From: an uncultured Bradyrhizobium sp.
Lineage (GTDB): Bacteria; Pseudomonadota; Alphaproteobacteria; Rhizobiales; Xanthobacteraceae
Assembly: GCF_947648125.1 (NCBI RefSeq)
Contig: NZ_CANSMR010000013.1
Span: forward strand, 143,589 to 207,588
Length of the DNA stretch: 64,000 nucleotides
Direction: 5' to 3'
The notes beneath the pieces were generated by a model that was not told the DNA's origin, searched no databases, and worked only from the letters and a program-made list of their open reading frames with translations. This document shows positions 1,387-61,569 of the stretch, piece after piece. Position numbers and translations under genes: made by a program. Within the stretch, counting starts at the first letter, position 1; the number at the start of each line of letters is the position of its first letter.

Positions 1387-3240
1387 TCACTCCGCCGCAG
1401 CCTGGCCGAACTCGGTCGCCTGCCGCTCGAACAGGCCGCGGTAGATACCGCCCTGTCGTGCGGCAAGCACCTCATGCGTGCCCTGCTCGACGATCTCGCC
1501 GCGATCGAACACCAGGATGCGATCCATGCTGCGCACGGTCGACAGCCGGTGCGCGATCACGATCGAGGTCCGGCCCTTCATCAGCCGCTCCATTGCCTGC
1601 TGGATCAGCGCCTCGGATTCCGAATCGAGGCTCGAGGTCGCCTCGTCCAGGATCAGGATCGGCGCATCGGCCAGGAAGGCGCGCGCCAGCGCCACGCGCT
1701 GCCGCTCGCCGCCCGACAGCTTGACGCCGCGCTCGCCCACCAGCGTGCCGTAATCCTTCGGCAGCCGCATGATGAAGTCGTGCGCATTGGCAAGCCGCGC
1801 CGCCTGCTCGATCGCCTCCATGCTGGCGCCCGGCCGGCCATAGGCGATGTTCTCCGCCAGCGTGCGGTGAAACAGGATCGGCTCCTGCTGCACGATCGCG
1901 ATCTGGCTGCGCAGCGATTGCTGCGTCGCCTTGGCGATATCCTGACCGTCGATCAGGATTTTGCCGCCGGAGACGTCGTAGAGCCGCTGCACCAGCTTGA
2001 CGAAGGTCGTCTTGCCGGAGCCGGAGCGCCCGACGAGGCCGACGCGCTCGCCAGCATCGATGTCGACCGACAGCCCGTCATAGAGCGGCAAGCGATGGCC
2101 GCCATAGTGGAACGTGACGTCGTCGAACACGATACGGCCGCCCTGGATGTCGATCGTCCTGGCATCGACCGCATCGACAATGCCGAGCGGCTCGCCATGG
2201 ATCTGCACCAGCTCCTCCATGTCGTTCACCGAACGCTGCAGGTTGTTGATGTGCATGCCGACATCCCGCAGGTACGCGTGGATGATGTAGTAGCTGGTCA
2301 GCACATAGGTGACGTCGCCCGGCGTGGCTTGGCCGGCCGCCCACAGCAGGATCGCGCCGCCGATCACCGAGGCGCGGAAGCACAGCAGCACCAGGAGCTG
2401 CGCCGTCGAGGTGTGGTTGTAGCGGAACCAGGTCCGCCGCACCCGCCGGCGCCAGCGGCTGATGACACCGTCGAGCCGCATGTCCTCGCGCGTCTCGGCG
2501 CCGAACGACTTCACCACCGCGTTGCAGGTCAAGGCATCGGCCAGCGTGCCGCCGACCTTGGTGTCCCACGCATTGGAGACGCGCGCGGCAGGCGCGACGT
2601 AGCGCACCTGGAACACCATGGTCATCGCGACATAGATCACCGAACCCACGGCGATCACCGCGCCGAGCGATGGCCAGTGCAGCCCGAGCAGGATCATCGA
2701 GCCGAGCAGCACCACGAGCGACGGCAACAGCGCCATCAGGATGGTGTCGTTCAACAGGTCGAGCGCCCACATGCCGCGCGTGATCTTGCGCACGGTGGAG
2801 CCCGCGAACGAATTGGCGTGCCAGTCGGTCGAGAAGCGCTGCACGCGCATGAAGGCCTGCTGTCCGACATCGGACATCGTCTTCAGCGTGAACGGCACGA
2901 TGGTCTGGATACCGACCAGCCGCAGCATCAGCGACAGCGCGCCGAGGCCGACGATGGCGCCGAACGCCAGCATCGCCGCATGGCGTGCGGCGGCATCGGT
3001 CGCGCCCGCGGTCAGCGCGTCGACCAGATGGCCGGAGAATACCGGCATGAACAGGTCGGCCGCGGTCGCGCCGAGGAATCCCGCCGTCACCGCGAAGGCG
3101 CGCAGCGGCTGCTCCAGCCAATGGCGGAACACGAATGGCAGGACGATCCGGATCGCGGCCGGTCGCTTGTTGGTCAGAGAGGTCATGGCACATTCCGGCC
3201 GCGCTTCTGCTGCGCAAGCCGGCTCCATCTGAGGCGACAT
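1387..3240 (-). CDS. ABC exporter, fused permease and ATPase
   Basis: This 617-residue half-transporter has an N-terminal exporter-type membrane domain (about six helices, residues 40-350) followed by a nucleotide-binding domain. Walker A is GRSGSGKTT near residue 403, the signature is LSGGERQRV near 507, Walker B is ILILDEAT near 525, and the switch His is in IAHRLS near 560. All key ATPase residues are present, so it should work as a homodimer exporting a lipid, peptide or drug. The start used here is the ATG at 3240; an internal ATG at 3186 (MTSLTNKR) is equally plausible. It appears monocistronic. Family resemblance is to MsbA/McjD-like exporters, without enough detail to name a substrate. 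Confidence 0.9.
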   Translation of the reverse strand: MSPQMEPACAAEARPECAMTSLTNKRPAAIRIVLPFVFRHWLEQPLRAFAVTAGFLGATAADLFMPVFSGHLVDALTAGATDAAARHAAMLAFGAIVGLGALSLMLRLVGIQTIVPFTLKTMSDVGQQAFMRVQRFSTDWHANSFAGSTVRKITRGMWALDLLNDTILMALLPSLVVLLGSMILLGLHWPSLGAVIAVGSVIYVAMTMVFQVRYVAPAARVSNAWDTKVGGTLADALTCNAVVKSFGAETREDMRLDGVISRWRRRVRRTWFRYNHTSTAQLLVLLCFRASVIGGAILLWAAGQATPGDVTYVLTSYYIIHAYLRDVGMHINNLQRSVNDMEELVQIHGEPLGIVDAVDARTIDIQGGRIVFDDVTFHYGGHRLPLYDGLSVDIDAGERVGLVGRSGSGKTTFVKLVQRLYDVSGGKILIDGQDIAKATQQSLRSQIAIVQQEPILFHRTLAENIAYGRPGASMEAIEQAARLANAHDFIMRLPKDYGTLVGERGVKLSGGERQRVALARAFLADAPILILDEATSSLDSESEALIQQAMERLMKGRTSIVIAHRLSTVRSMDRILVFDRGEIVEQGTHEVLAARQGGIYRGLFERQATEFGQAAAE

Positions 3241-3551
3241 GCGGACGGAATCCGGCCGCTTATGTCGCTGGAAATTGTAGATAAATTGTTGGGAAGTTTG
3301 GATGATCGGGCATCAAGCCCGTTCAGCGCTGGGACCTAACGCGCGAGAGCGCCCAGGAGCAACGAACGCGGGCGCACGGTCTGCGAAACAAACGACATCA
3401 TGTGCATCTCCCCGGTTCGTGAAACGATGGCGCTGCTTATAAATGCATCACGCGCGATTGGCAAGATGACAAGCGCGTGAGTGCGTCAACGTGTCGATGA
3501 TGCAACGCTCTGCACGCGACCGGGCACACATCGCGCGCGAAGCCGATGCGC
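3241..3551. other. Intergenic stretch, nothing recognised
   Basis: These 311 bases lie upstream of the ABC exporter and downstream of the efflux gene on the same strand. I see no convincing gene, repeat or terminator. The promoter of the ABC exporter is presumably here. Confidence 0.5.
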
Positions 3552-5141
3552 TCAATGCGCGTCGCCGCCGCCCGTGGTCAATGACGGCGGCTTGTTGACG
3601 AACAGCACCAGAACGCTGAGCGCGACATAGAACAGCGACAGCATGAGGAAGGCGTCGCCATAGCCCATCACCGCGGCCTGCCGGTGCACGATCTGCGAGA
3701 GCTGCTTCATCGCCATGATGGCGGAATCGCCCATGCCCTGCATCCGCTGGGTGAGCATGTTGAGGGTCTCGACCGCGGTGGTGTTGCCCCAGGTCACGCG
3801 GTCCTGCAATCGCGAGATATGCAGATCGGTGCGGTCGTTGAGCACCTCGTTAATGACAGCGAGCCCGAGCGCGCCGCCGAGGTTGCGCATCAGGTTGAAC
3901 AGGCCGGAAGCGTTCTTGACGCGGTCCTGCGGCAGCGTGGCGAGCGCGATGTTGTTGGTCGGCACCATCGCGCACATCATGCCGATGCCGCGCAGGATCT
4001 GCGGCAGCAACAGCTCGTAGAAATCATAGTCGCGGGTGATCCAGGTCATCTGCCAGGAGCCGAGCGCGAACGTGACGAGGCCGAAGGCGATGATGTAGCG
4101 CAAATCGACCTTCTGCATCAGCCGGCCGATGACGGGCGCCATCAGGAACATGGTGACGCCGGAGACGAACATGGTCTCGCCGATCATCAGCGCGCTGTAG
4201 CCGCGGATCTCGGCGAGATAGCGCGGATAGACGTAGGTCAGGCCGTAGAGCCCGATGCCGATGCAGAATTGCAGCACGCAGCCGACCGCGAAGTTGCGGT
4301 TGGAGAAGGCGTAGAGATCGACGATCGGCTCCTCCGCGGTCAGCACCCGCCAGAAGAAGGCGATCGCCGAGACGAAGCCGACCGCGGCGCAGACCGCGAC
4401 CGAGGTGTCCTGCAGCCACTCATATTGCGGGCCTTCCTCCAGCACATATTCGAGCGAGCCGAGGAAGCCGCCCATGAAGATCAGGCCCCACCAGTCGAAG
4501 CGATCGAGCAGCGCGAAGTTCGGCTGGTCGAAATCGATCAGCGCCAATACGCCAATGGTGATGATGACGCCGGGCACGATGTTGATGAAGAACAGCCAGT
4601 GCCACGACATCAAATCGGTGATGTAGCCGCCGACGGTCGGGCCCACCGTCGGCGCAAGCGTCGCGACTAGGCCGATGATCGGCGCCACGATGTAAAACTT
4701 CGAGCGCGGGAAAATCAAATAGGCCGAGGCGAACACCGTCGGGATCATGCCGGCGCCGAGAAAGCCCTGCAACGCGCGCCACAGGATCATCTGCTCGATC
4801 GAGGAAGCGAAGCCGCACAAGAGGCTCGACACCGTGAAGCCGAACGCCGAGATCGCAAACAACAGCCGGGTGCCAAGTGCGCGCGACAAGAAGCCGGACA
4901 GCGGGATCGCGATCACCTCGGCGATCAGATAGGCGGTCTGCACCCACGACACTTCGGTCGAGGATGCCGACAGGCCGGCTTGGATCTCGGTCAGCGACGC
5001 CGAGACGATCTGGATGTCCAGGATCGACATGAACATGCCGAACACCATGATGATGAAGGCAAACAGCCGCTTCGGCTGGATGCGCTCGGACTCCGAGGCG
5101 CCGGTCATCATCGAGGGCGAAGCAGTGGTCGCGTCGGCCAT
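3552..5141 (-). CDS. DHA2-family MFS multidrug efflux permease (EmrB-like)
   Basis: This 529-residue protein has 14 predicted membrane helices and typical DHA2 (EmrB/QacA) features: an N-terminal MFGMFMSILDIQIV-type helix with the Asp of motif D1, the TEVSWVQTAYLIAE segment, and motif C-like APTVGPTVGG in helix 5. It should be the proton-driven inner membrane pump of a tripartite efflux system. The gene directly downstream of and co-oriented with the EmrA-like adaptor (5185-6513; 43-base gap) supplies its partner. An outer membrane factor is not in the window. Regulation is probably by the divergent TetR repressor at 6702 through the operator at 6595. Confidence 0.92.
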   Translation of the reverse strand: MADATTASPSMMTGASESERIQPKRLFAFIIMVFGMFMSILDIQIVSASLTEIQAGLSASSTEVSWVQTAYLIAEVIAIPLSGFLSRALGTRLLFAISAFGFTVSSLLCGFASSIEQMILWRALQGFLGAGMIPTVFASAYLIFPRSKFYIVAPIIGLVATLAPTVGPTVGGYITDLMSWHWLFFINIVPGVIITIGVLALIDFDQPNFALLDRFDWWGLIFMGGFLGSLEYVLEEGPQYEWLQDTSVAVCAAVGFVSAIAFFWRVLTAEEPIVDLYAFSNRNFAVGCVLQFCIGIGLYGLTYVYPRYLAEIRGYSALMIGETMFVSGVTMFLMAPVIGRLMQKVDLRYIIAFGLVTFALGSWQMTWITRDYDFYELLLPQILRGIGMMCAMVPTNNIALATLPQDRVKNASGLFNLMRNLGGALGLAVINEVLNDRTDLHISRLQDRVTWGNTTAVETLNMLTQRMQGMGDSAIMAMKQLSQIVHRQAAVMGYGDAFLMLSLFYVALSVLVLFVNKPPSLTTGGGDAH

Positions 5142-54142: not shown

Positions 54143-54221
54143 AGCGCTCTGCGCACGCCGCGGTGCAGCTCGTGGCATACAAGTTGACACATCCGCCCAT
54201 CCGCCTACATTAGGGGCGTTC

Positions 54222-54340
54222 CGAGGGGTGCTCCGAAGGAGGAGCTGAGATACCGCAAGCTTGGACTTCGCCACCATGGCGATCAGTTCGGGACCGCGGT
54301 GACCCTTTGAACCTGATCCGGGTCATGCCGGCGAAGGGAC
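54222..54340 (+). promoter_or_regulatory. TPP riboswitch (THI element)
   Basis: The conserved blocks are all present in order: GGGGTGC-type 5' arm (54225), GCTGAGATACCGC (54243), and the pyrophosphate-side block ACCCTTTGAACCTGATCCGG, then GTCATGCCGGCGAAGGGAC. An extra stem is inserted between the two halves of P3. The element ends only four bases before the thiO ATG, so its 3' arm includes the ribosome binding site (AGGGACAGGG). Control by sequestering the site when thiamine pyrophosphate is bound is likely. Confidence 0.95.
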
Positions 54341-54344
54341 AGGG

Positions 54345-55358
54345 ATGTACCAGACGTCAAGACTGCGGGGGGATTCCCCCGTCTCCATCATCGGCGCAGG
54401 CATAACCGGCGCCTGGCATGCGTTGTTGCTCGCAGAGGCCGGACGTGCCGTCACCCTGCATGAGCGCAGTGACGCTGCGATGACGCAATCCACAAGCCAT
54501 TGGGCCGGCGGAATGCTCGCGCCCTGGTGCGAGGCGGAAGCCTCCGAGCCCGTGATCTCGCGGCTCGGCATTCGCTCGCTCGACCTGTGGCGACGGCATT
54601 TTCCGGAAACGGCGTTCAGCGGCTCGCTGGTGGTGGCGCATCCGCGCGACCGCGCCGATTTCGAGCGCTTTGCCCGCCTCACCACTGGTTATCGCCGGCT
54701 CGACGCCGACGGCGTCCGCGAACTCGAACCGTCGCTCGAGGGCCGCTTCGGTAGTGGCCTGTTCTATCCCGAGGAGGGCCATGTCGAGCCGCGCCGCGTG
54801 CTGCCGCGGCTGCATGCCGCGATCGCCAAGGCCGGCGGCGCCATCAAGTTCGGCAGCGACGCCGAAGCTGATGATCTCGACGGCCTCGTGATCGACTGCC
54901 GCGGTCTTGCCGGGCGCGACCGCGAGCCGAGCCTGCGCGGCGTCAAGGGCGAGATGATCGTCATCGAGACCGCCGAGGTCGAATTGTTGCGCCCGGTGCG
55001 GCTGATCCATCCGCGCTGGCCGCTTTACGTGATCCCGCGCGGCGATGGCCGCTTCATGCTGGGGGCGACCTCGATCGAGGCCGAAGACAACGGCGTCAGC
55101 GTGCGCTCGGCGCTCGAGCTGTTAGGGGCCGCCTATGTCGTGCATCCGGCGTTCGGTGAGGCGCGCATCGTCGAATTCGGCGCCGGCCTGCGCCCGGCCT
55201 TTCCGGACAATCTGCCGAAAATCAGGATCGAGCAGGAACGCATCACGGTGAACGGGCTCTACCGTCACGGCTTCCTGCTCGCGCCGGCGCTGGCCGAGCT
55301 GACGCTCGCCTATCTTTCGCGCGGCGAAATCGACAATGAGGTGATGCAATGCGCGTGA
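54345..55358 (+). CDS. thiO: Glycine oxidase ThiO
   Basis: This 337-residue FAD-dependent amine oxidase (DAO fold) has an N-terminal dinucleotide motif SIIGAGITGAWHALLLAEAG, HWAGGMLAPWCEAEASEP and a C-terminal NGLYRHGFLLAPALAELTL, typical of ThiO. It oxidises glycine to iminoacetic acid (dehydroglycine), which supplies the C2-N unit of the thiazole ring. Directly below the TPP riboswitch, it overlaps thiS by ten bases. The choice of ThiO rather than ThiH fits an aerobe. Confidence 0.93.
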   Translation: MYQTSRLRGDSPVSIIGAGITGAWHALLLAEAGRAVTLHERSDAAMTQSTSHWAGGMLAPWCEAEASEPVISRLGIRSLDLWRRHFPETAFSGSLVVAHPRDRADFERFARLTTGYRRLDADGVRELEPSLEGRFGSGLFYPEEGHVEPRRVLPRLHAAIAKAGGAIKFGSDAEADDLDGLVIDCRGLAGRDREPSLRGVKGEMIVIETAEVELLRPVRLIHPRWPLYVIPRGDGRFMLGATSIEAEDNGVSVRSALELLGAAYVVHPAFGEARIVEFGAGLRPAFPDNLPKIRIEQERITVNGLYRHGFLLAPALAELTLAYLSRGEIDNEVMQCA

Positions 55359-59181: not shown

Positions 59182-59191
59182 GGAGCCGACG

Positions 59192-59216
59192 GCGACGCCG
59201 GCTTGCACGGCGTCGC
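59192..59216 (+). terminator. Hairpin after thiC
   Basis: A 9-bp stem (GCGACGCCG / CGGCGTCGC) with a 7-base loop lies 10 bases past the thiC stop. No T-run follows, so the call is tentative. It also separates thiC from the convergent RelA/SpoT gene. Confidence 0.45.
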
Positions 59217-59342
59217 TGCCGCGATGGAGCGCTCTCCACTTAAGGCCCGAATGCCCTTGTTGCGCCGACTCACAGGCTGGGCGACAAAATATCAATCGGC
59301 GGACGCTCCTGTCCAGATGGGCGCGCCATGCCTCCCTGCCTA

Positions 59343-60329
59343 CTAGTTTTTCTTGTCGTACTTGAAGACTGGAGTGAGAGCGCGCACTTCAGGAAAGAGT
59401 TGCACCAACTGCTCGGTTACGTGGCAGGAGTATTTTTGTAGCGGCCCAGTCAGCATTCCGCCCTGGCAAAGCATTCCCATACATACTTGCAGGAGTGACG
59501 CGCTTCTCGGAAATGACTCCTCGGTGAACGCTCGCAGACGTATGTCTAATTCAGATAGAGCGTCTTCTAACCTTACCTTCTTTTTCGACGCCCGAATCAT
59601 CGACGTCAAGTTTTCCGCGAACCGCGTCATGTCCTTCGGGCCAGCTTCGCTCGGGATTACCCCATCGGAATTCAGCTTTTCGATCAAGTCGACCACTCGT
59701 TGCCTGTCTTTCAGCTCAGGCCACGGCGATTCGCTAATTGCCGCTGCAAGCTGTTCAAACTGGACGATGGAAAGATCGAGTTGCTCCGTCGCGGATTTTA
59801 TTTGGGCGGCAAGCCGAAATCGCCTCCAATCAATATTGTCTGACTTGTAGGTAAGGGGATGCGTAGAAACAGTCCACGCGTGTTCAAATGCTGTTCGAAT
59901 TTGAATTTCGAACTTAATGTCGAAAATCGAGAGTGAATCCCCGACATCGAGACCCTCGGGCATGTTGATAAACCCGTACAATCTTGTGGAATCGAAACGA
60001 AACACTTCCGGTGATTTTCTCGTGGACGACCTTCGCTTAACGTCGACGATACGGAAAACCCGACTACAGTAGTCTAACGCTGCCTCCTCGTGAGGTAGGT
60101 TAGGAATAACCATCGTACACGCAACGAGATCGTCCAACTCCTCGAAGGAACCATATCGACCGGTCTCAATTTTTTCTGCTGCCGATTCGATCGTCTTTAT
60201 GCGAGCTATGAGCGGAAGCAAGTTTGATTGGGCATAAGGCCGCAACGAATTCGTTAAACGTTGTTCGATCTCTTGCAGATAGGGCGTGAGTTCCCCGTAC
60301 GCCTTAATCAGGGGCTGCGGAATGTTCAC
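59343..60329 (-). CDS. RelA/SpoT-domain protein (alarmone-synthetase fold)
   Basis: This 328-residue protein has a synthetase fold at residues about 40-165: RxKxxxSxxxK as RIKTIESAAEK (Arg43, Lys45, Ser49, Lys53), LDDLVACTMVIP where most synthetases have D-I-x-G-x-R (the Arg is Thr), and EIQIRTAFEHAWTVSTHPLT followed by YK with the catalytic Glu141. Where synthetases have the acceptor-loop YxSxH the text is FDSTR (112-116). A helical extension of about 160 residues follows. There is no HD hydrolase, TGS or ACT domain, so it is a small-alarmone-synthetase-type protein. It starts 8 bases after the DUF262 gene stop, in an AT-richer island. A toxin or effector role is inferred. Confidence 0.85.
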   Translation of the reverse strand: MNIPQPLIKAYGELTPYLQEIEQRLTNSLRPYAQSNLLPLIARIKTIESAAEKIETGRYGSFEELDDLVACTMVIPNLPHEEAALDYCSRVFRIVDVKRRSSTRKSPEVFRFDSTRLYGFINMPEGLDVGDSLSIFDIKFEIQIRTAFEHAWTVSTHPLTYKSDNIDWRRFRLAAQIKSATEQLDLSIVQFEQLAAAISESPWPELKDRQRVVDLIEKLNSDGVIPSEAGPKDMTRFAENLTSMIRASKKKVRLEDALSELDIRLRAFTEESFPRSASLLQVCMGMLCQGGMLTGPLQKYSCHVTEQLVQLFPEVRALTPVFKYDKKN

Positions 60330-60337
60330 GGATTTGC

Positions 60338-61384
60338 CTATGGTACCGCAATGTTTCCGGAAAGAATTTCAACTAGAGTATTAATTCTGGTTTGCCTGGG
60401 TCCTGCATCGTTAGACGCTGCACGGCTCGCGTTAAAATACGATAGGGCGGGAGGAAAGGCGTTGCGCTTCTGCTCGTCCTCAACGACTTCGATAAAGCGA
60501 TCGAGACGGTTAAATGCCGGTGCTGAAGCGGGCGCTTGACCCGATCTGGACAAGGAGCATACGGCTCCGACCAACGAGTAGAAATCGGCTTGGTTCTTGA
60601 GCCGAGTACGCGCCAGATCGCCCGAATTATCACTCCTCACTATTTCATCGATCTTCTGGATCGCTTGTCGATACTCACCCACCGTGTCTTCCATCTTCTC
60701 CCATTCCGGGTCGCGACTGCTAAATGCAGCATCCAAATCGTCTTGGGAATAAGACTTCGGTCCCTCTTCGATCAACAACAGGAGTTGGGCGATGAATTCG
60801 CTATCTCGCATCTGCTTTCGCGATGCAGGCTGGATAAACGGAAAATTCCTTGGAAGAGTCGCGAAGGTCCATTCCGACAATTCCTCCACCTTGGAGATAA
60901 ACAGCCCCGAAAACTTTGCGTGGCGCAACTCTTGACGAGTTAGCTTGGCAACATTTCGATTAATGCGGTCGAACACCGTATTGATGAGGTTTTCATCCTC
61001 CGATGGGATGAATTCGACAGCAAATTGATATCTCCAGAAACCGCGCTTTGTGTCGTCATCCAGATCTTTGAAGTATTTGTCGCGATGCTTTGCAATCGAC
61101 GCCTCGGAGGAGACGGGAAATTGATTCCCGGCAAACTCGAATAAAGTAAGCAGTCGCTGCTTACCATCGACAACGCTGTACTTTGCCACACCTTCTGGGG
61201 CGATATCTTCGTAAAGAAATATCGCTGGACAGGGATACTCATTGAGAACCGTGTCGACGAAGAAATCCTTGTAGGGTTGATTCCAGATGCTCCTCCGTTG
61301 ATAGGGAGGATCCATTTCTAGAAGATTCCTGTTATACAGATCCCATAGCCAGGACAGGGATTGGAAGGTTGCTTTTCTTTGCAT
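60338..61384 (-). CDS. DUF262 domain protein (ParB/GmrS-N-like), upstream partner
   Basis: This 348-residue protein has the DUF262 signatures: MDPPYQRRSIWNQPYKDFFV (Q29-R30, the P-x-YQR-x-x-x-W motif), PCPAIFLYE, VVDGKQRLLTLFEFAGNQF (DGQQR as DGKQR, 73-77) and NTVFDRINRNVAKLTRQELR (the F-x-R-x-N-x-x-x-x-x-L-x-x-x-E-x-R motif). DUF262 modules are nucleotide-dependent nucleases or NTPase sensors in GmrSD, SspE and related systems. There is no DUF1524 HNH domain here, so it is a stand-alone module with a helical C-terminus. It lies 8 bases upstream of the RelA/SpoT-domain gene and is surely co-transcribed. Base composition is AT-richer than the flanks. Confidence 0.88.
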   Translation of the reverse strand: MQRKATFQSLSWLWDLYNRNLLEMDPPYQRRSIWNQPYKDFFVDTVLNEYPCPAIFLYEDIAPEGVAKYSVVDGKQRLLTLFEFAGNQFPVSSEASIAKHRDKYFKDLDDDTKRGFWRYQFAVEFIPSEDENLINTVFDRINRNVAKLTRQELRHAKFSGLFISKVEELSEWTFATLPRNFPFIQPASRKQMRDSEFIAQLLLLIEEGPKSYSQDDLDAAFSSRDPEWEKMEDTVGEYRQAIQKIDEIVRSDNSGDLARTRLKNQADFYSLVGAVCSLSRSGQAPASAPAFNRLDRFIEVVEDEQKRNAFPPALSYFNASRAASNDAGPRQTRINTLVEILSGNIAVP

Positions 61385-61569
61385 CGTTGCACTTTGCTCG
61401 CGCCATAGCTGCGATTAGACATGTAGCTACTTCTAATAGAATACCGTACGAGCGCAGAACGCAATACTGAGACGGTTGATAGGACCGATCTAAGCCTGAT
61501 CTCGGTCTTGCGCCACAAAAACGTAGTCATGGAGCAAGCGGCGGAATCAAGCCGCTGATAGACGAAAGT

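Follow-up and report, generated by a model that had tools for sequence, protein, structure and literature searches.

A DUF262 gene and a RelA/SpoT-fold gene form a conserved pair, a candidate anti-phage system with a variant base-recognition site

The window, a 64,000-nucleotide stretch of DNA from an uncultured Bradyrhizobium sp., carries a gene for a DUF262 (GmrSD_N) protein followed by a gene for a RelA/SpoT-fold protein, hereafter REL. The adjacency of these genes is more than chance, as both frames belong to conserved families and every one of the 35 loci that allow a test shows the same pairing. The pair looks like a DUF262-plus-effector defence system in which the effector has a RelA/SpoT fold, making it an uncharacterised candidate anti-phage system. 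Throughout its family, REL retains the residues of phosphate and metal chemistry and has replaced those that hold the nucleotide bases.

Results

The two genes lie in a variable site beside thiC

The earlier note described two minus-strand genes, 8 bases apart, in AT-richer DNA running from thiC to a monooxygenase gene, and both the coordinates (Table 1) and the base composition bear this out. The G+C content of the pair is 0.498, lower than in thiC (0.645), in the monooxygenase gene (0.641) and in the window overall (0.647). Pfam assigns residues 15-158 of the DUF262 protein to GmrSD_N (6.7e-19) and residues 43-164 of REL to RelA_SpoT (1.4e-8). With E values up to 1 allowed, Pfam showed no second family in the DUF262 protein or in REL, in keeping with the earlier description of a RelA/SpoT-fold protein without hydrolase or regulatory domains; NCBIfam provided a family match for neither. 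The DUF262 protein, which is predicted to be an NTP-binding sensor, contains the motifs YQR (28-30), DGKQR (73-77) and FxxxN (138-142), with a C-terminal helical region after the GmrSD_N part. REL has a variant base-recognition site (T72, F112 and R116) and a C-terminal helical region at about 200-328. The YQR, DGKQR and Glu141 residues highlighted earlier were all located in the two sequences. Promoter-like sites in the island are at the level of shuffled sequence (2 against a mean of 1.8), and terminator-like sites show no excess over shuffles (0 against a mean of 2.7).

Table 1. Positions of the gene pair and its surrounding interval in the window
Feature	Position	Strand	Description
DUF262 (GmrSD_N) gene	60338..61384	minus	348 aa; first of the pair in transcription order
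REL (RelA/SpoT-fold) gene	59343..60329	minus	328 aa, GTG start; second in transcription order
Intergenic gap, DUF262 stop to REL start	60330..60337	minus	8 bases
AT-rich interval holding the pair, thiC to monooxygenase	59182..61569		content varies among same-genus relatives

In this genus, the position immediately following thiC receives variable cargo, some of which is defence-like. In a search of 146 same-genus genomes, the window's own included, thiC and the monooxygenase gene are present in same-genus genomes, and none of the matches listed covers the island in another of them. Among the relatives with both flanks together, the interval between thiC and the monooxygenase is about 1.0 kb at its shortest (G1056) and 8.4 kb at its longest (G1152), with differing ORFs; this place therefore takes up cargo. 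The ten interval proteins that were scanned comprise one RelA_SpoT, one Abi_C, one Hypoth_Ymh and one SnoaL protein, five without a family and one with a sub-threshold AAA match only. In G1152, thiC is followed by an Abi_C protein and transposase-like ORFs (L200 624-1571). In another relative (G242), a RelA_SpoT protein with canonical residues begins 107 bases after thiC (L204 604-1644), and the monooxygenase is not on its other side. Across the island of the window, no flanking direct repeat marking insertion ends was found. Integration at a tRNA site was ruled out because the window contains no tRNA. The one Rfam match in the window is a TPP riboswitch (54214-54357, 64.4 bits), which precedes the thiamine genes ending in thiC. 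A copy of the pair in a Parvibaculum bin also stands about 1.3 kb from thiC (L048; 1525-3492 and 4765-6813), on the opposite side relative to the window, which reflects either chance or a shared preference for the site.

The pairing is conserved across phyla

Using a four-row REL alignment as the query, from which DUF262 was absent, a scan of 84,980 species genomes yielded 47 loci, 36 of them close (L048-L083, tblastn E up to 1e-20) and 11 weaker (L084-L094); the window REL protein alone, as query of genome contigs, returned zero loci. A same-strand DUF262 gene lies directly upstream of REL in 35 of the 36 close loci, and at the remaining one (L052) the contig begins at REL, placing the upstream partner beyond reach. 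The number of independent loci is slightly below 36, as L057 and L017 are one locus and L080 duplicates L079. By record names, the close loci span 12 phyla, two of them archaeal (Thermoplasmatota and Nitrososphaerota), with several from metagenome bins, in which a stray contig is possible. The earlier note had proposed a search for the two families as adjacent genes and held that a pair confined to one strain, or homologues standing apart elsewhere, would count against it. Instead, DUF262 and REL are neighbours in every testable close locus. Beside the weaker REL loci, DUF262 was found in none of the eight that are testable, the other three lying within 500 bases of the locus start.

The reverse view, from DUF262 in 296 genomes of the bacterial family, is similar. 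All three DUF262 matches with E < 1e-100 are accompanied by REL, and a weaker match (L157, E 2.7e-58) is accompanied by a REL of another type with a canonical site. The remaining 26 of the 30 DUF262 loci have no REL within about 1.5 kb of flank. In addition, DUF262 distances and REL distances correlate strongly over 37 pairs (Mantel r 0.87) and within each of the two branches described below (r 0.84 over 10 pairs in branch A, 0.76 over 27 pairs in branch B), with 0 of 2000 permutations as high in each of the three comparisons. The gap between the genes falls between -40 and +20 bases in 33 of 39 tabulated pairs, figures that use ORF starts as listed, which overreach upstream. Together, DUF262 and REL almost certainly form one functional unit.

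The pair is rare. Only the window's own genome has a family-strength match among 398 phylum-sample genomes, and three of the 296 family genomes carry the pair (its own, G140 and G120). Plasmid matches come from five records, every one a conjugative Rhizobium plasmid. IMG/VR contributes three loci (L095, L096 and L207), with DUF262 in two ORFs in L096 and L207, and 50,697 annotated phage records contain no match. On Rhizobium tumour-inducing plasmids (L014 and L015), the REL gene of a BsuBI/PstI-adjacent pair is split by an IS5 transposase gene. Four phylum genomes (L126, L127, L128 and L150) have two REL-like ORFs head to tail and directly adjacent.

The DUF262 protein resembles a sensor

At the sequence level, neither phmmer with the DUF262 protein nor a family profile matched a PDB chain. 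Fold comparison assigns it the fold of the BrxU and SspE N-terminal domains, and the VDGKQR motif is invariant in 39 aligned DUF262 rows. Passages of the literature describe DUF262 as a modification sensor in GrwAB (PMC12137116) and as a phosphorothioate-triggered NTPase in SspE (PMC10952713), and present the DUF262 proteins of GrwAB, BrxU and SspE as coupling DNA-mark recognition to NTP hydrolysis and nuclease activity (PMC12137116, PMC10952713). A DUF1524/HNH nuclease domain was detected neither by Pfam at E up to 1 nor by fold comparison. The suggestion that the DUF262 protein cuts foreign DNA finds no support because the protein has no detectable nuclease domain, and sensing appears likelier than cutting.

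REL keeps its phosphate and metal residues and replaces its base-holding residues

The REL alignment consists of 40 family rows, including L052, L096 (where DUF262 is in two ORFs) and L017 (the L057 locus) and omitting L080 as a copy of L079. It was compared with 34 of the 46 non-family loci with a REL hit, after omission of 12 long multi-domain or housekeeping-length proteins (L031, L032, L033, L037, L039-L045 and L047). R43, K45, S49, K53, D67, E141 and Q143 are invariant in all 40 rows, and the FDxxR motif is invariant in the aligned family rows. These seven residues align with R64, K66, S70, K74, D90, E145 and Q147 of FaRel2, the pairing of numbers being our own. In FaRel2, passages of the source describe the first four as holding the triphosphate, D90 as binding Mg, and E145 and Q147 as contacting adenine (PMC11782079).

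The base-recognition site is different. Position 72, five residues after the catalytic Asp, is T in 34 rows, S in three, and A, V and M in one each, with R in 0 of 40; position 112 is F and position 116 is R in all 40. At the same positions, the 34 other RSH proteins have R in 32 (one E and one gap), Y in 34 and H in 33 (one K). By our alignment-based matching of numbers, REL positions 72 and 112 correspond to R95 and Y128 of FaRel2 and to R116 and Y155 of CapRel, although the G-loop register is not certain: MAFFT with the 34 relatives places F112 on the Tyr without gaps, profile alignments to PDB chains place F110 there with gaps, and 110 and 112 are both Phe in 40 of 40 rows. FaRel2 R95 is described as contacting adenine and Y128 as contacting the acceptor base, with Y128F as the standard impaired mutant (PMC11782079); the CapRel counterparts are given as R116 and Y155, and Y155A as abolishing protection (PMC9712102). 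Structure-library comparison gives REL the RSH synthetase fold, with matches that cover residues 1-197 only.

This pattern undercuts the earlier likening of REL to single-domain RelA/SpoT toxins, at least as a plain synthetase or toxSAS, since three base-recognising residues are replaced in all 40 REL proteins. The reading of the site that fits best is that base recognition has been rebuilt with phosphate and metal chemistry kept. We put the proposal that REL is enzymatically active with altered specificity just short of an even chance, and because Y128F impairs FaRel2 and Y155A abolishes CapRel protection, REL could by analogy have little or no activity. Another kind of DUF262-RSH pair, separate from this one, occurs in the same bacterial family (L020 6330-8383; also L157). 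At L020, the DUF262 protein is 27% and the REL 21% identical to those of the window, and this REL, which is one of the 34 comparison proteins, retains the canonical Arg, Tyr and His.

These features bear on two alternatives to a sensor with an effector. One is a toxin-antitoxin pair without a DNA sensor, in which REL would be a toxSAS-like toxin and the DUF262 protein its antitoxin, lost or broken down upon infection on the model of bicistronic toxSAS modules. The DUF262-first order, the overlap or near-overlap and the tight linkage are typical of type II modules, and toxSAS proteins are portrayed in passages of two sources as antitoxin-controlled defence effectors (PMC11782079, PMC9712102). 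However, a 348-aa NTPase-fold DUF262 protein with VDGKQR unchanged in 39 rows exceeds the needs of a neutraliser, and REL lacks the adenine-stacking Arg beside which antitoxin YXXY motifs insert, leaving this arrangement unlikely. The other alternative is that REL is a dead RSH-fold scaffold or nucleotide sensor that regulates a DUF262 effector, either NTP-depleting or DNA-acting. The loss of the ATP-site Arg and the G-loop Tyr in every REL would suit a dead protein, as would the impairment of toxSAS enzymes by Y128F-type changes (PMC11782079). Yet metal and phosphate sites usually drift in dead enzymes, whereas those of REL (R43, K45, S49, K53, D67, E141 and Q143) do not vary, and no nuclease domain was found in the DUF262 protein; we therefore regard a dead scaffold as rather unlikely.

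Restriction-modification genes accompany one of two branches

In a tree of 74 RSH proteins, built by a quick method with SH-aLRT support only and with the three trait columns kept in the alignment, a branch with SH-aLRT 99 separates the 40 family rows, as a single clade, from the others. The family splits into branch A, with 12 rows including the window (SH-aLRT 99), and branch B, with 28 rows (97). Branch A is drawn from Pseudomonadota, Cyanobacteriota, Actinomycetota and Bacteroidota. Flanks of 24 of the 28 branch-B rows match a profile for adenine-N6 methyltransferases (cut-off E 1e-5; built by iteration, and so possibly far-reaching), the exceptions being L063, L074, L078 and L096; the gene is upstream on the same strand in 16 and downstream on the opposite strand in eight. 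None of the 12 branch-A flanks contains a match, the window flank (L024) included, with short flanks at L052 (0 kb upstream), L053 (0.5 kb upstream) and L055 (0.7 kb downstream), and none occurs in 19 same-contig control regions. Pfam identifies single neighbours at L077, L095, L068, L069 and L082 as Eco57I/N6_Mtase. The match of the L062 neighbour is weak (Pfam 1e-4, above the family cut-off), and the L061 neighbour has no Pfam match yet is 60% identical to that of L070, with an NPPF motif.

A BsuBI/PstI endonuclease, detected with a profile built from eight BsuBI/PstI proteins, adjoins nine of the 24 methyltransferase-bearing branch-B rows; in addition, L096 has a fragment of one and L014 carries the set intact. 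No such endonuclease stands beside the window copy, BsuBI/PstI-type restriction-modification is absent from the branch-A flanks, and neither protein of the pair contains an endonuclease domain. At L063, a branch-B locus lacking a methyltransferase, the region upstream of the pair (2520-4799) encodes a BsuBI/PstI endonuclease N-terminal domain fused to an AAA_21 ATPase and followed by a 218-aa ORF; this arrangement resembles an ATPase-centred defence operon that has borrowed a DNA-binding domain.

Neighbours were also compared for 19 of the 36 loci (14 branch B and 5 branch A) against 19 same-contig controls. At E up to 1e-5, PADLOC reported 202 families from 102 pair-neighbour ORFs and 9 from 100 control ORFs; the fairer contrast is between type II methyltransferase models with up to 12 members each and control families with one member each, as one methyltransferase matches many models. 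Pfam families among the pair neighbours include N6_Mtase (9), Eco57I (7) and BsuBI_PstI_RE_N (5), none of which occurs in the control regions among the best 25 of 104 families. Across the 12 branch-A loci compared, no third gene is conserved: only DUF262 and REL recur, apart from thiC beside L048 and a weak similarity linking a small ORF of L051 to one of L053.

The earlier note's term of a two-gene island holds for the window's branch and not for the sister branch, where a methyltransferase is the usual neighbour. This methyltransferase linkage, an important part of the picture, cannot be seen in the window on which that note was based. The restriction-modification link has no direct bearing on the window copy, because no branch-A flank holds such a gene. 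The methyltransferases and their placement in branch B could indicate that the pair is an accessory of neighbouring restriction-modification systems, such as a regulator, back-up killer or specificity helper. We consider this improbable given branch A, where 12 rows from four phyla do without a methyltransferase. Finally, the RelA_SpoT fold speaks for a housekeeping alarmone synthetase to which the neighbouring DUF262 gene is unrelated, but this was rejected as contradicted by the conserved pairing, with a fixed DUF262 partner across 12 phyla, an altered active site, a sporadic distribution and an AT-rich island in a variable site.

Discussion

The pair probably has a role in defence. The simplest reading is a sensor with a growth-arresting effector, because the pair lacks a nuclease and has an RSH-fold protein as the constant partner of DUF262. 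By analogy with related systems, we somewhat favour the DUF262 protein as the sensor and REL as the effector, and we are evenly divided on whether a sensor-effector defence module is in full the best explanation. In such a module, the DUF262 protein would bind and hydrolyse nucleotide and sense whether incoming DNA carries a chemical mark. Once triggered, it would release or activate REL, an enzyme that would take pyrophosphate, or a related group, from a nucleotide, attach it to a target in the cell and thereby stop growth before phage release. For branch B, the mark would likely be set by the adjacent adenine-N6 methyltransferase, so that self is marked and foreign DNA is not. For branch A, including the window, the trigger would more likely be a phage-borne modification, as in type IV restriction, because no methyltransferase is nearby. 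REL probably uses an acceptor other than the guanine nucleotide of ordinary alarmone synthetases, given that its base-holding residues are replaced and its phosphate and metal residues kept.

A more specific form of this proposal is a nuclease-free, mark-gated restriction. Here, a DUF262 NTPase would read a mark, either set by a methyltransferase or present as a phage modification, and fire a REL whose base pocket, rebuilt by Arg-to-Thr, Tyr-to-Phe and His-to-Arg replacements, would accommodate a pyrophosphate acceptor or donor that is new. We view this scheme as possible but doubtful. If true, RSH proteins would have a third chemistry, in addition to the synthesis of alarmones and the pyrophosphorylation of tRNA. 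More broadly, the pair would join two defence logics that are separate in the literature found, namely DUF262 sensing of DNA marks and growth arrest by RSH-fold toxins. It also poses the question of how an RSH enzyme functions with its phosphate and metal sites kept and its base-holding residues replaced family-wide. In addition, the branches with and without a methyltransferase offer a natural comparison of 'self is marked' and 'foreign is marked' with the same effector.

The earlier note knew of no characterised system with this pairing, and in open-licence literature, preprints excluded, we likewise found no description of a DUF262-RelA/SpoT pair, which is weak evidence for novelty. The two halves are catalogued apart. 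The PADLOC model PDC-S33 matches 39 of the 40 REL proteins (best 9.9e-12); judging by its name, we take it to be a candidate single-gene defence family and not the pair. For the window DUF262 protein, PADLOC matches are to NsnA (1.3e-34, residues 9-252) and PD-T4-2_A (1.9e-15). The same literature contained nothing relevant on the nature of NsnA, and this match may represent a described system.

Comparison with known systems places the pair between several of them. Unlike type II restriction-modification, in which a cognate methyltransferase is expected, the window copy and the 12 branch-A rows have none beside them, whereas 24 of 28 branch-B rows do, and the BsuBI/PstI type II system adjoins some branch-B pairs but not the window copy. 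With GmrSD, BrxU, SspE and the two-gene GrwAB, the pair shares the DUF262 N-terminal fold and the YQR, DG(K)QR and FxxxN motifs. It differs from them in lacking a DUF1524 His-Me nuclease, whether fused or as a partner, and in having a RelA/SpoT-fold effector; the DGQQR of the GmrSD family is DGKQR in 39 of 39 DUF262 rows of the pair. REL resembles CapRel and toxSAS proteins (FaRel2, PhRel) in its RSH synthetase fold and its triphosphate- and Mg-binding residues. However, the position of CapRel R116 and FaRel2 R95 is Thr, Ser, Ala, Val or Met in all 40 REL proteins, that of CapRel Y155 and FaRel2 Y128 is Phe, and all 40 have Arg in place of the His that follows. Moreover, REL has an extra C-terminal helical region, and its partner is a DUF262 protein, whereas theirs are zinc-finger-like or Panacea antitoxins. 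The closest organisational parallels are Menshen and PD-T4-2, described in one source as combining DUF262 with a non-DUF1524 effector, an OLD nuclease and a HEPN protein, respectively (PMC10952713). The pair shares with them a DUF262 gene in a fixed operon with a different kind of effector (35 of 35 testable loci), but in place of the OLD nuclease or HEPN protein its effector has the RelA/SpoT fold, and an adenine methyltransferase is a frequent neighbour.
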